Origin: Flammeovirgaceae bacterium BBD 1991-12
Lineage (GTDB): Bacteria; Bacteroidota; Bacteroidia; Cytophagales; Cyclobacteriaceae
Length of the DNA stretch: 49,159 nucleotides
NCBI GenBank assembly: GCA_001657315.1
Contig: LYSV01000034.1
Span: 1 to 49,159, forward strand
Direction: 5' to 3'
Within the stretch, counting starts at the first letter, position 1, and each line of letters starts with the position of its first letter. A model generated the notes under the pieces. That model saw only the letters and a program-made list of their open reading frames with translations. It was not told the origin of the DNA and searched no databases. Shown piece after piece: positions 16 to 42,848 of the stretch. The translations under genes and the position numbers were made by a program.

Positions 16-50
16 GAACTTTGAACTTTCAACGTAGAACATTGAACGAA
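16..50. repeat. Degenerate heptamer tandem repeat (GAACNNN type)
   Basis: Five consecutive 7-bp units (GAACTTT, GAACTTT, CAACGTA, GAACATT, GAACGAA) lie directly upstream of the prfC promoter. The part at 23-47 matches the reverse complement of 21778-21802 at 23 of 25 positions, so this is a dispersed family. Confidence 0.75.
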
Positions 51-13189: not shown

Positions 13190-14698
<1,509 letters not shown>

Positions 14699-14739: not shown

Positions 14740-14770
14740 CAAAACTAAGCCTTATCCTGTACAAAGCAAA
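14740..14770 (-). promoter_or_regulatory. Promoter of atpDC
   Basis: On the minus strand TTTG (14767-14770) is followed after 19 nt by TAGTTTTG (14740-14747). Both boxes match the Bacteroidota consensus with standard spacing, about 44 nt upstream of the atpD ATG. Confidence 0.8.
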
Positions 14771-14796: not shown

Positions 14797-14831
14797 CATA
14801 GGGCATAGGGCAAGGAGCATAGAGCATAGGG
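14797..14831. repeat. Degenerate heptamer tandem repeat (CATAGGG type)
   Basis: Five 7-bp units in register: CATAGGG, CATAGGG, CAAGGAG, CATAGAG, CATAGGG. It lies upstream of the atpD promoter, 15 bp from a second heptamer array. Confidence 0.75.
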
Positions 14832-14846
14832 GCCTACTCCTTATTC

Positions 14847-14930
14847 CAGCTCCCAGCTTCTAACTTCCGACTTCCGACTTCCAGCTTCTAACTTCCGACT
14901 TCCAGCTTCTAACTTCTAACTTCCAGCTTC
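14847..14930. repeat. Twelve-unit heptamer tandem repeat (NNNCTTC type)
   Basis: Twelve in-register 7-bp units: one CAGCTCC, then a mixture of CAGCTTC, TAACTTC and CGACTTC. Positions 4-7 of the unit (CTTC) are constant after the first copy, while positions 1-3 switch between CAG, TAA and CGA. It ends 8 bp from the stop codon of the histidine kinase gene. Confidence 0.9.
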
Positions 14931-14938
14931 CAAACCAA

Positions 14939-16153
14939 CTAAGACTGAAGCACGATCCGGAACGTGGTCCCCTGATTTTCTTCTGAAGACTTCACATAGA
15001 TCTTGCCCTGATGGTAGATCTCAATGATCCTTTTGGCCAGTGTAAGCCCCAGCCCCCAGCCACGCTTTTTGGTGGTAAACCCGGGGTTGAACACCTGCTT
15101 GATCCTGGACTTCTGGATACCCTTGCCTGTGTCAGCCACATCGATGAATACGCGCCCTTCACTGCCTTTCAGAATATAGATGCTGATGGAACCTGCTCCG
15201 CCCATGGCATCTACTGCATTTTTACACAGGTTTTCGATCACCCACTCAAACAAAGGTGCATTTACCTGGGCTTCAATATCCGGGGTGAGAGAGTCGACCG
15301 ATATGGAAACCTTGGGTGAGATGCGGGGTTTCAGGTACTCAATGATGCCCTTTATCAAGGGTTCTACAGGCTCTTCAGTGAGCACTGGTGCTGACCCTAT
15401 ATTCGAAAACCGTTCCGTGATCACCTGCAGCTTCTTTATGTCCTTGTCCAGCTCGCCTATTAGGTGCTTGTCCTCAATACTGGCCTGATCTCTGAAATAC
15501 TCCACCCAGGCCATTAATGATGATATCGGGGTGCCCAACTGGTGGGCGGTCTCCTTGGCGAGTCCTACCCATACGCGGTTTTGTTCAGCTGCCTTGGAAT
15601 AGTCAAAAGCCATATAGGCTATAAAAGCGATGATAGCGATGATCGAGAGCTGTACTATAGGATAGTAGGTAAGCTGGGTCAGCAGAAAGGAATTTCTGTA
15701 ATAGACGTAATTGATCACATAGATCTCATTGGTGAGCTCATCACGGTCCACTACCTCTATAGGCTCATATTCAGAGCGCATTTTCTCCAGCTCCCGGTAG
15801 AGTCGCTGTTGCTGTTCCTTGTCAGTTAATGTAGAATCTATATCAATATTTCTGTAGTGCAGGATCTCTCCATTCTCAGAAAGTAATATGGTAGGAATGG
15901 AATTATTCCTTACCAGTATCTCATCGGAAATAAAATTCAGGTCCTTATCGAGCTTGGCATCCAACGTGTATTGAATAGCTTTGGCATACAGCTCTATTTG
16001 TCTTTTTTCGCGCTCCTGGAGCTGGTCCACCAGTACATTGGTATAAAAGATAGAGCCAACACTGATGATGAGGGATACAATGAGAATGATCCATTTGATT
16101 TTGGATTTGTCATAGTACAGATCAATCCCTCCTGTTTTACTTACCTCAGCCAT
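14939..16153 (-). CDS. Two-TM sensor histidine kinase (orphan)
   Basis: 404 aa. TM1 is at about 19-41, an extracytoplasmic sensor domain at about 42-162, and TM2 at about 165-183. There is no HAMP domain. The phospho-acceptor box is ETAHQLGTPISSLMAW with His at about 204, a variant common in Bacteroidota. The ATPase domain has ENLCKNAVDAM, DTGKGI and GWGLGLTLAKRI, so it is probably active. No response regulator is adjacent. It lies between the ABC exporter genes and atpD, separated from the former by a terminator and from the latter by heptamer repeats. Confidence 0.9.
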   Translation of the reverse strand: MAEVSKTGGIDLYYDKSKIKWIILIVSLIISVGSIFYTNVLVDQLQEREKRQIELYAKAIQYTLDAKLDKDLNFISDEILVRNNSIPTILLSENGEILHYRNIDIDSTLTDKEQQQRLYRELEKMRSEYEPIEVVDRDELTNEIYVINYVYYRNSFLLTQLTYYPIVQLSIIAIIAFIAYMAFDYSKAAEQNRVWVGLAKETAHQLGTPISSLMAWVEYFRDQASIEDKHLIGELDKDIKKLQVITERFSNIGSAPVLTEEPVEPLIKGIIEYLKPRISPKVSISVDSLTPDIEAQVNAPLFEWVIENLCKNAVDAMGGAGSISIYILKGSEGRVFIDVADTGKGIQKSRIKQVFNPGFTTKKRGWGLGLTLAKRIIEIYHQGKIYVKSSEENQGTTFRIVLQS

Positions 16154-21762: not shown

Positions 21763-21812
21763 GTTGACAGTTTGGGAGTTCAATGTTCAATGTTGAAAGT
21801 TCGAGGTTTGTC
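21763..21812. repeat. Degenerate heptamer tandem repeat (GTTNNNN type)
   Basis: Units GTTGACA, GTTTGGG (plus one extra A), GTTCAAT, GTTCAAT, GTTGAAA, GTTCGAG, GTTTGTC. The best part, 21778-21812, is five exact-register heptamers. 21778-21802 is the inverted relative of 23-47 (23 of 25 identical). Confidence 0.75.
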
Positions 21813-34359: not shown

Positions 34360-36141
34360 TCAGGGTTTTTTGGTTTTGATCCGTATGATACCCCCGGCCT
34401 CCACGCCGTATTTTTTGGCAGCTGTCGGCCTGCGTATCACTTCCATGGATTCGATCTCGTGGGGTTCGAGATAAAAAGGATCACCATTGTAAACTTCATC
34501 ATCAATGATGTAGATCAGCAGACTATTCTGCATTTTCAACAAATTATTTTGCATATCCTGCACGTACACCGGGTGATTGGGTCGTATTGGTATGTGTGTT
34601 GTATCTGACCAGAAATTACTTTGTGGATTCCTTCTGATTCTTTCTATAACCGGTACCCTGGTAGAATCATAACGGTAAGTGGAGATAACAACTACTCCGT
34701 TTTTAGCGGCACTTCCGTAGAGGGCTGTAGCCGCCTGATCTCTCAAAATATTAATGCTTTTAATTTGTTCTGGTGTCAGGTCCCTGATTGGATTACGTTC
34801 TTTAGTGGCCTTTCCATCAATAATGTAAAGAGGTTGTTCGAGATTGTCAGCTGTACGTAAATCAATGAGCGGATTCCTTCTTACAGGTTGATATGAAGAG
34901 GAGGAATACCATCCCGGGGCAGTATTTTTCCTGTAAGACGGAAGATGGGACTGGCTTAGATTTACATCAATCAGACTGTCGGCTGATAGTAGAGGAACAA
35001 CAATGAAATCATGCTCCACAGCAAAGAAAACTACTTCGAAGGCAGATTGGGGTACATCTTTAAGTCTGTAAAAACCTTCTTCATCGGTAAGGGTGCTGAT
35101 CCCAAAGCTCCTTACCATCACCTGTACCTCTGGGATAGGCTTGCCGTCATTAATATGATTTACTTTCCCGGAGATGTCACGGGTTTCTTCTTGTTCGTCT
35201 TTTGTGGGATCCGGGTAGATCGGTTCGGACCAAAAAGCCAGGAGAGTGATGGCTAAGGGCAACAGGATCAATGTTTTCAATCGGGTCAGTTTACCAGAGC
35301 GCTTTTTATTCATCATGATGATCCTTTTTTTCAGAGAATGCCGGGCAAAAGTATTGGTCGGTACTATTTGTTCATAGCCGGTGCTGTATTTGAGTAAAAG
35401 CATCTGATATTGCTCTGAGGTGCTGCCATTGAGGATAACACCTTCATCGGCAAGGTATTCGTGGATTTCCTGCAGTGCTTTTTTTAACAACCATGCTGCT
35501 GGGTTGTACCACTGGATGACGAGCATCAGCTCAGCGAGTAGGAGATCCACCGAATGATACTGCCTGATGTGAGTATTCTCATGCGCTAGTATTGTATGGA
35601 ACTCTTCACCCTGGATGGAAGGCGGTACAAACAGGAGGTTGCAAAAAGAGAAGGGGGCACTGACCTTTGAGGTGATCGCCAGCCGGATACCGCTTGGTGC
35701 TATTTCAAATTGTGCAGACCTGTATAAACTCCATATTTTGATCAGCATCAATACAAGCCTGATGAAGAATACTACAACTCCTGTGAAATACACCCAAAGT
35801 AGCCACGTAGCCAGACTATGGATAAAGGATGGCCGGCCGGGTCGGGCGTCATACATGAGCTTTTGTTCTGTGATGAAAGGTATTGGTTCGGTAGGATGTG
35901 TAACGTTGTATGATGGGCCTGATTCTGTGGGAATGGGGGAAACATTATACTCACCTTTGAAAAAGGCAAGGTGTGGAAAGTTAATGAACGGTAGTGTTAG
36001 TGCGAGGCAAATGGATAAGATCAGGTAAGCCCGACTGAATGCGAAGTGAGTAGTGTTCTTAAAGAACACCCAATAAGCAAAGTAAAAGACAGCTATACCT
36101 GCTGAAGCCTGCAGGAGGTAAACGAGGGGGTCAGTTTCCAT
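34360..36141 (-). CDS. BlaR1-like M56 peptidase fused to tandem TonB-plug-like modules
   Basis: 593 aa. The N-terminal part (about 1-300) has four or five membrane helices and the zinc motif LAHENTH (HExxH), as in BlaR1/MecR1. After the last helix (about 287-303) a periplasmic region carries a carboxypeptidase-regulatory-like sandwich (about 318-385; ISGKVNHINDGKPIPEVQV) and then two plug-like segments: PLYIIDGKAT...ALYGSAAKNGVVVIS and IYIIDDEVYNG...AKKYGVEAGGIIRIK. No penicillin-binding sensor domain is present. It overlaps blaI by 11 nt. It probably cleaves BlaI in response to an envelope cue. Confidence 0.9.
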   Translation of the reverse strand: METDPLVYLLQASAGIAVFYFAYWVFFKNTTHFAFSRAYLILSICLALTLPFINFPHLAFFKGEYNVSPIPTESGPSYNVTHPTEPIPFITEQKLMYDARPGRPSFIHSLATWLLWVYFTGVVVFFIRLVLMLIKIWSLYRSAQFEIAPSGIRLAITSKVSAPFSFCNLLFVPPSIQGEEFHTILAHENTHIRQYHSVDLLLAELMLVIQWYNPAAWLLKKALQEIHEYLADEGVILNGSTSEQYQMLLLKYSTGYEQIVPTNTFARHSLKKRIIMMNKKRSGKLTRLKTLILLPLAITLLAFWSEPIYPDPTKDEQEETRDISGKVNHINDGKPIPEVQVMVRSFGISTLTDEEGFYRLKDVPQSAFEVVFFAVEHDFIVVPLLSADSLIDVNLSQSHLPSYRKNTAPGWYSSSSYQPVRRNPLIDLRTADNLEQPLYIIDGKATKERNPIRDLTPEQIKSINILRDQAATALYGSAAKNGVVVISTYRYDSTRVPVIERIRRNPQSNFWSDTTHIPIRPNHPVYVQDMQNNLLKMQNSLLIYIIDDEVYNGDPFYLEPHEIESMEVIRRPTAAKKYGVEAGGIIRIKTKKP

Positions 36142-36505
36142 TTTGGTTCTGTTTTGATTGGATCAATTGGATAATCTCTTTTAATTCTTCTTCATTTATC
36201 TTTTCTTCTTTGGCAAAGAAGGAGATAACATCTTTATAGGAGTTTTCGAAGTAGTCCCTGATCACCCTTTTAAGGTCAAACTTCCTGTATTCGTCCCGGG
36301 AGACGATAGGAAAGTATTCATAGGTCTTTCCGTAGGCCTTATATCCCACAAAACCTTTCTTTTCCAGGATCCTTACTACAGATGAAACCGTGCTGTAAGG
36401 TCTTTTTGGTGGCGGCAGCTTTTCCAGTACATCATTGACAAATCCCCGGCCGATCTGCCAGATGATATGCATTACCTCTTCCTCTTTTTTAGTGAGTCGT
36501 TCCAT
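36131..36505 (-). CDS. BlaI/MecI-family transcriptional repressor
   Basis: 124 aa from ATG 36505; longer in-frame starts run into the operator region. The winged helix is recognisable (MERLTKKEEEVMHIIWQIG; PYSTVSSVVRILEKKGFVGYKA), followed by a C-terminal dimerisation helix (about 85-118). The 3' end overlaps the M56 gene, giving the standard repressor/protease pair. Inverted repeats just upstream of the ATG suggest autoregulation. The regulated envelope genes are not obvious. Confidence 0.92.
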   Translation of the reverse strand: MERLTKKEEEVMHIIWQIGRGFVNDVLEKLPPPKRPYSTVSSVVRILEKKGFVGYKAYGKTYEYFPIVSRDEYRKFDLKRVIRDYFENSYKDVISFFAKEEKINEEELKEIIQLIQSKQNQNGN

Positions 36506-36516
36506 AACAACAAATA

Positions 36517-36558
36517 TATAACGTATTAAACAGTTATACAACGTATAAATACGTTATA
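36517..36558. promoter_or_regulatory. Probable BlaI operator (nested inverted repeats)
   Basis: Arms TATAACGTATT (36517-36527) and AATACGTTATA (36548-36558) are perfect inverted repeats. Between and overlapping them is a second dyad TTATAC-AAC-GTATAA (36534-36548). It lies 12-53 bp upstream of the blaI ATG. Confidence 0.65.
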
Positions 36559-42693: not shown

Positions 42694-42728
42694 GAAAACA
42701 GTTGGCAACAGGCAGTGAGCAGTCAACA
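42694..42728. repeat. Degenerate heptamer tandem repeat (NNNNNCA type)
   Basis: Five in-register 7-bp units, GAAAACA, GTTGGCA, ACAGGCA, GTGAGCA, GTCAACA, lie 76-110 bp upstream of the kynU ATG. Confidence 0.65.
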
Positions 42729-42764: not shown

Positions 42765-42848
42765 TCCAGACACCAGAACAAGGAGACCAGTATCCGGTCA
42801 TCATCAATTAACCATCAACGATAAACGGTCAACCACTACCAATCATCA
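42765..42848. repeat. Degenerate heptamer array between kynU and ogt
   Basis: Twelve 7-bp units can be read from TCCAGAC through ACCAGAA, CAAGGAG, ACCAGTA, TCCGGTC to ATCAACG, ATAAACG, GTCAACC, ACTACCA, ATCATCA. The words are loose, but the CC/CA/AAC spacing of 7 is evident. The array reaches the last codons of ogt. Confidence 0.55.

Follow-up and report, generated by a model that had tools for sequence, protein, structure and literature searches.

Dispersed heptanucleotide tandem repeats in the intergenic DNA of a Cyclobacteriaceae genome

Two heptamer arrays between atpD and a kinase gene

The window analyzed here, a stretch of 49,159 bp, is the entire contig C15 of Flammeovirgaceae bacterium BBD 1991-12, whose genome comprises 8.59 Mb in 282 contigs. 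Two tandem arrays of 7-bp units, one built from words of the CATRGNG family and the other from words of the CTTCYRR family, lie side by side in the gap between a sensor histidine kinase gene and atpD (Table 1). Many histidine kinase models match the kinase open reading frame (ORF), none of them above its cut-off among the 25 matches listed. When lag-7 identity was scored in 40 shuffles of the entire window under a first-order Markov model, neither the first array (identity of 0.79 over 14797-14831) nor the second (0.78 over 14847-14933) was matched in any of them (0/40), which bears out the two adjacent period-7 arrays described in the initial annotation. The perfect register that was also ascribed to them is not conserved: counted by hand, the CTTC array is offset from the CATRGNG array by 4 (modulo 7) in the window and by 5 at another locus (L059), and the rotation of a unit can always be chosen. 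Period 7 had likewise been proposed for four other window sites. Support was found for sites 16-50 (identity of 0.68, equalled in 2/40 shuffles) and 21763-21812 (0.58, equalled in 1/40), the latter also holding an exact match to three consecutive GTTSAAN units (GTTSAAN x3), one among 26 sites in the genome. Site 42765-42848 (0.49) is graded as marginal despite being equalled in 1/40 shuffles, because no recurring word backs it, and site 42694-42728 (0.54) is at chance level, with 40/40 shuffles equalling it.

The kinase gene is present in 15/15 genomes of the genus, the source genome included. In 14/14 congeners, atpD lies directly beyond it, across a gap of 102-129 bp without any period-7 run; the gap in the source genome measures 243 bp and holds two such runs. 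The closest congeners, G175 and G174, have kinases that are 91% and 86% identical to that of the source genome. In an alignment with these two genomes, the insertion starts directly past the kinase stop codon and is separated by 26 bp from the -33-like box of a promoter-like stretch, which places the array upstream of that stretch and outside the atpD leader; no target duplication was seen in this alignment. The stretch is called promoter-like by comparison with the Bacteroidota consensus. Its TAGTTTTG box is identical in G175 and G174, and its TTTG box is also present in G175, with TTGG in its place in G174. Judged from the array-free gaps of the congeners, the window array is a recent gain at the atpD site, and its absence from all of the congeners makes a conserved function there unlikely. 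It is very improbable that the array is a phase-variable contingency repeat whose unit number tunes the expression of atpD or of the kinase gene. Such a role would fit a position near a promoter-like stretch and a difference between species, but the array stops short of the -33-like box, outside the spacer and any reading frame, atpD is not a surface gene, and other arrays occur at dozens of places.

Differences in site and length between close relatives, a mark of dispersed heptanucleotide repeats, were also found elsewhere. Opposite the 3-4 GTTSAAN units of site 21763-21812, G174 shows only a two-unit TTCAGTR pair, and no array was seen by eye in G174 or G175 at the place matching site 16-50. 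Upstream of its kinase gene, G175 carries a heptamer hairpin (GTCGGCAATCGGCAA and its complement), and none was seen there by eye in the source genome. A stricter scan of 94 kb of sister sequence found no period-7 array, which is uninformative, since at the density of the genome sample (a) described below that length would contain only about one.

Table 1 Repeat arrays and flanking features in the window
Feature	Position	Strand	Remarks
Five CATAGGG-type heptamers (CATRGNG family)	14797..14831	+	Third unit CAAGGAG
Spacer separating both arrays	14832..14843	.	
About twelve CTTCNNN heptamers (CTTCYRR family)	14844..14933	+	Higher-order 21- and 28-bp units; initial units degenerate
GTTSAAN array	21778..21802	+	3-4 units
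GAACTTT... period-7 array	16..47	+	By eye like the GTTSAAN word
Weak period-7 stretch	42765..42848	+	ATCAACC/ATCATCA type; marginal
atpD, F1 ATP synthase subunit beta	13190..14695	-	TIGR01039, above cut-off; start about 100 bp from array
Sensor histidine kinase	14939..16153	-	Ends about 5 bp from array; synteny anchor
Promoter-like stretch, TTTG-N19-TAGTTTTG	14740..14770	-	Between array and atpD

Period 7 and recurring words across the genome

Arrays were assigned to coding or intergenic DNA by a simple ORF rule in three samples of the genome. Sample (a), 57 stretches totaling 825,926 bp, excludes the window and three stretches from the hit-list contigs C25, C218, and C267; sample (b) adds these four (935,085 bp); and sample (c) consists of 446 kb out of hit-list contigs, window included. 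In sample (a), which is the fair sample, period 7 comes first, with 8 intergenic and 0 coding arrays, and period 8 is a clear second, the intergenic counts at periods 5, 6, 8, and 9 being 0, 1, 4, and 0. Among the other periods, 16, 23, and 24 had 3 each, and 14, 21, and 28 had 3, 4, and 2. Sample (b) gave 14 intergenic arrays at period 7 versus 0, 1, 4, and 0 at periods 5, 6, 8, and 9. In sample (c), there were 14 period-7 intergenic arrays and none at any other period from 3 to 30 save 14, 21, and 28, which had 8, 9, and 4 intergenic runs; three Markov shuffles of this sample gave no period-7 array. The excess of period 7 over periods 5, 6, 8, and 9 that had been predicted for intergenic DNA was thus found, but over period 8 it is only 8 vs 4 in sample (a). 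A binding or helix-phase signal, which the initial annotation had offered as one possible origin, is not borne out: a 7-bp unit does not correspond to a helical turn, the runs at 14, 21, and 28 bp all occur with no clear preference for two turns, and the matching gap is array-free in 14/14 congeners. A unit of 7 bp that exceeds the neighboring periods and a mainly extragenic location are features of dispersed intergenic heptanucleotide repeats (long simple sequence repeats, LSSR, or heptameric simple sequence repeats, SSR), yet the arrays of L057 and L067, which belong to the hit-chosen set, lie within called ORFs. Apart from the heptamers, a period-8 word of the GTGYTGAA type was noted at L099:4348-4487 and L006:1305-1544, one of them with a 31-bp hairpin.

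Three word families recur at other sites and on multiple contigs of the genome, which shows that the arrays are not unique to the window; the same word at many sites is a further feature of heptanucleotide repeats. With sites counted by hand and matches less than 300 bp apart joined, CTTCYRR x3 had 273 matches at 15 or more sites and CATRGNG x3 had 45 matches at 21 sites, the reversed-pattern control giving 0 for both, and GTTSAAN x3 had 36 matches at 26 sites. Across the 15 genomes of the genus, CTTCYRR x3 had no match in G174 or G175 and 2, 4, and 1 matches in three others. CATRGNG x3 had 2 matches at one site in G174 and none in the other 13 congeners, and GTTSAAN x3 had 2 matches in G107 and none in the other 13. 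A candidate sister word, ACTGCCN x3, was found in 0/15 genus genomes; imperfect ACTGCCN units are present in G175.

Within the arrays, words vary at fixed positions of the unit, as had been noted for the window: of 152 CTTCNNN units from 20 arrays, 124 carry one of four triplets (CAG, 40; CAA, 36; CGA, 26; TAA, 22), and CAG, CGA, and TAA each differ from CAA by one transition. Periods of 14, 21, and 28 are present inside arrays. When arrays were collected from sample (b) blind to their words, 11 arrays yielded 10 distinct words, mostly one-off, in keeping with the earlier suggestion of a common period with unrelated words. A RACT core common to the words was not established, the shuffle p values being 0.017 for 5/10 distinct words (the less biased set from the source genome) and 0.02 for 7/32 cyanobacterial stretches, against 0.10 for all stretches of the source genome (5/15), 0.51 for g46 (2/11), and 0.08 for CATRGNG loci (19/106). 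The end of G000:C39 (36651-36980) and the start of G000:C50 (1-126) are contig breaks inside CTTC arrays, and the assembly may therefore truncate or lack the longest arrays.

Inverted pairs, shared blocks and a proposed origin

From 41 array-bearing gaps, inverted partner arrays were sought by eye in 29 listed CTTC/CATRG entries, a few of these gaps being listed twice, and were found in L017, L033, L037, L038, L042, and L047. In L017 and L047, variant units stand in matching order on both arms, as expected for an inverted copy. When 546 gaps, including those of hit-chosen stretches, were scanned, stems of at least 20 bp were detected in 25, namely in 5/19 array gaps vs 20/527 others. An arm with a lag-7 identity of at least 0.6 was present in 10/25 of these long intergenic stems, and in 4/25 an arm reached that identity at lag 5, 6, 8, or 9, one stem being shared between the two groups.

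Heptamer-armed hairpins, together with a fixed core and variable positions that resemble a recognition motif, could mean that arrays or hairpins are selected as transcription terminators, stabilizers of mRNA 3' ends, or regulator binding sites. By hand count, 5/13 stems with an arm identity of at least 0.6 at lags 5-9 lie between convergent genes, vs 96/546 gaps. We nevertheless consider such selection unlikely, since the array gaps do not clearly favor any gene orientation (2 divergent, 12 tandem, and 5 convergent, n = 19, vs 118, 332, and 96, n = 546), several unrelated words coexist, and none of the 14 congeners has the atpD array.

Long hairpins that resemble one another, made of GTTATTG- or GTTACTG-type units of 7-8 bp, were observed separately at L059:7887-7957, L064:14346-14425, L072:6834-7071, and L070:13005-13140; three of the four sit between convergent genes, and these hairpins may act as terminators. 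A near-perfect inverted repeat of 30 bp with a loop of 14 bp, not heptamer based, was seen at L126:18632-19302.

The order of a CATRGNG array followed by a CTTCYRR array recurs in the window, L035, L059, and L040. In addition, L044 (contig C243) and L084 (contig C156) share an 84-bp block (93% alike) made up of a CATRGNG array and the sequence next to it; most of the other non-periodic matches listed in the same search connect pieces outside array gaps. The recurring order, the shared composite block, and the fact that few words abound at many sites in a lineage-specific way would all fit a dedicated copying machine (a mobile element, a reverse transcriptase, or a repeat-writing enzyme) that disperses words in the manner of a telomerase-type reverse transcriptase with a short RNA template, and DRT10 provides a precedent of bacterial reverse transcriptases able to write short tandem repeats (PMC12632851). 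We find this explanation doubtful at best. The relevant passages on DRT10 concern cDNA, not chromosomal arrays (PMC12632851). The sole RVT_1 match in the genome (L289:307-1566) belongs to a group II intron maturase, with 415.9 bits on TIGR04416 (cut-off, 300), whereas models for DRTs and retrons fall far short of theirs; moreover, several different words coexist. A product of a telomerase-like reverse transcriptase of the DRT10 kind is not indicated, the lone RVT_1 match being the intron maturase and no DRT10 model having been searched genome-wide. As for features of miniature inverted-repeat transposable elements (MITE) or repetitive extragenic palindromes (REP), such as terminal inverted repeats, a target-site duplication, or a conserved core outside the repeats, no duplication was seen at the atpD site, and one composite block is common to two other contigs.

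We propose that the arrays are probably dispersed intergenic heptanucleotide tandem repeats with rapid turnover and without conserved function at the atpD site. The lead of period 7 in intergenic DNA, the recent gain at the atpD site, the three recurring words, the inverted pairs, and the one clear shared block are observed; the lack of function is inferred, as are the enzymatic steps of slippage, template switching, and ectopic copying. Slippage would extend a seed of one or two heptamers by 7 nt or a multiple of it (14, 21, or 28) at a time, and point changes would build up and be re-duplicated along with the unit, giving rise to fixed variable positions and higher-order units. These early steps, seed growth and re-duplication, are expected from slipped-strand synthesis, and the two-unit seed of G174 opposite an array in the source genome was counted in favor of the proposal. 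Fold-back template switching would generate inverted copies and, from these, hairpins with heptamer arms. Blocks of existing arrays would also be copied into other intergenic sites until a few words dominate one genome, a step suggested because words recur and one block is shared. Arrays would be purged from coding DNA and tolerated in intergenic DNA. The copying or slippage process raised in the initial annotation is thus the best reading. Its addition that the arrays do not descend from one element holds insofar as the words are unrelated, whereas a single word at 15-26 or more sites suggests copying between sites.

Several points weigh against this proposal. Period 8 is sizeable beside period 7 in sample (a) (4 vs 8), and its multiples 16 and 24 have 3 arrays each, which leaves a strict 7-bp rule unproven. 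Once arrays are masked, intergenic identity at lag 7 (0.272) falls under that at lag 9 (0.275) and lag 3 (0.274), which confines the periodic signal to discrete arrays. The reversed GTTSAAN control gives 9 matches in the source genome, and the comparison with the sisters rests on three window sites. Block copying leans mainly on one pair (L044/L084) plus the word order read by eye in four gaps, and the presence of one word at dozens of sites is unexplained by simple slippage. A heptamer-specific dispersal process, by which a few words, direct and inverted and in recurring order, were inserted at dozens of intergenic sites since the sister split, with words differing by lineage, seems improbable; if true, intergenic DNA would have a source that is neither transposition nor plain slippage. 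The genus combines a series of empty sites with a two-unit seed, hairpin copies, and a sister whose word is different, so the origin, growth, and spread of arrays could be tested in a few strains.

Heptamer repeats in other bacteria

This kind of repeat is already known from Xanthomonas, Nostoc, Beggiatoaceae, cyanobacteria, five Bacteroidetes, and Geobacter, the heptanucleotide repeats of the Calothrix type going by the name of STRR. New here are the several word families in one Cyclobacteriaceae genome, the series of 14 empty sites, the reciprocal gain in a sister, and the heptamer-armed hairpins. Rehm et al. (2015, PMC4692102) described heptameric repeats (GGGAATC and GGGGA(C/T)T) in Xanthomonas and Nostoc, which resemble the present arrays in their 7-bp unit, mostly intergenic location, variable copy number, and combination of fixed and free unit positions; two Xanthomonas genomes hold 186 and 183 repeat patterns, inverted pairs were noted, and length differs among close species. 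In contrast, those repeats are G-rich, were studied as G-quadruplex formers, and are described with one word type per genome, as against at least three families here (PMC4692102). GGG is impossible in CTTCYRR units on either strand and present in 17/55 CATRGNG units; the G-tract of at least three per unit that defines G-quadruplex repeats of this type is not a feature of our arrays.

Arrays of TAACTGA and other heptamers have been described in Beggiatoaceae, cyanobacteria, and five Bacteroidetes (MacGregor 2015, PMC4679880), contrary to the statement in the initial annotation that no matching description was known for Bacteroidota. As in the source genome, they are intergenic, found in Bacteroidetes among others, and accompanied by other heptamers, and relatives (in that case of Gramella forsetii and A. 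sublithincola) have shorter gaps with no obvious repeats (PMC4679880). TAACTGA is a single exact word that, in the BOGUAY genome, for the most part directly precedes start codons (PMC4679880), unlike the several degenerate words found here and the atpD array, which is upstream of a promoter-like stretch. The window arrays hold other words and do not belong to the TAACTGA type; TAACTGA itself was not searched in the source genome. For long simple sequence repeats, slippage by polymerase has been proposed, and the preference for 7 has been tied to the DNA stretch contacting the polymerase (Mrazek et al. 2007, as cited in PMC4679880 and PMC4692102). The tandem heptanucleotides of Calothrix PCC 7601 (cited in PMC4692102) comprise several words in one genome, as here, in a different phylum. 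Geobacter metallireducens carries four tandem heptamers (GGGACCG) at 49 places; like our arrays, these are heptamer tandems at many places, but they are four-unit elements and some are inside genes (PMC2700814). Repeats of period 7 turn up in unrelated bacteria, and the literature consulted does not settle the preference for this unit length.

In stretches chosen for carrying CATRGNG, Calothrix parasitica had 26 period-7 arrays in 100 kb (no period outside the multiples of 7 exceeding 4), Oscillatoria had 11 in 80 kb (others at most 3), and Nostoc had 9 in 40 kb (others at most 2). Period 7 was not prominent in Lentimicrobiaceae (1 array in 60 kb, with 1 each at periods 8 and 9) or Bacteroidales (2 in 40 kb, with 1 at period 8), and the family member G112 had no period-7 array in 60 kb. 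A scan for CATRGNG x4 returned at least 119 stretches in cyanobacteria, deltaproteobacterial metagenome-assembled genomes, Bacteroidia, and others. The idea of a word lexicon common to several phyla failed the reversed-pattern controls: CATRGNG x3 was found in 4 of 296 Bacteroidota genomes, the source genome included, and its control in 8, and among 48 genomes picked for CATRGNG, CTTCYRR x3 was found in 15 and its control in 9. For 118 genomes of the family, the counts were 19 vs 9 for CTTCYRR and 3 vs 0 for CATRGNG, the two genomes besides the source being both of those seen of genus g46. Viral contigs gave a mixed result, with 43 stretches vs 1 for CATRGNG x4 and 87 vs 69 for CTTCYRR x4. Array-rich genomes thus appear to use largely their own words.

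By eye, the Microcoleus/Tychonema-type loci L185, L191, L226, L248, L265, and L277 show full or partial GAGGTA ... TACCTC flanks around a CATAGGG array of variable length. Finally, the window contains, at 36515-36558, a 20-bp unit (TATACAACGTATAAACACGT) as a tandem pair that spans the start of the ORF at 36131-36541 and the adjoining gap.
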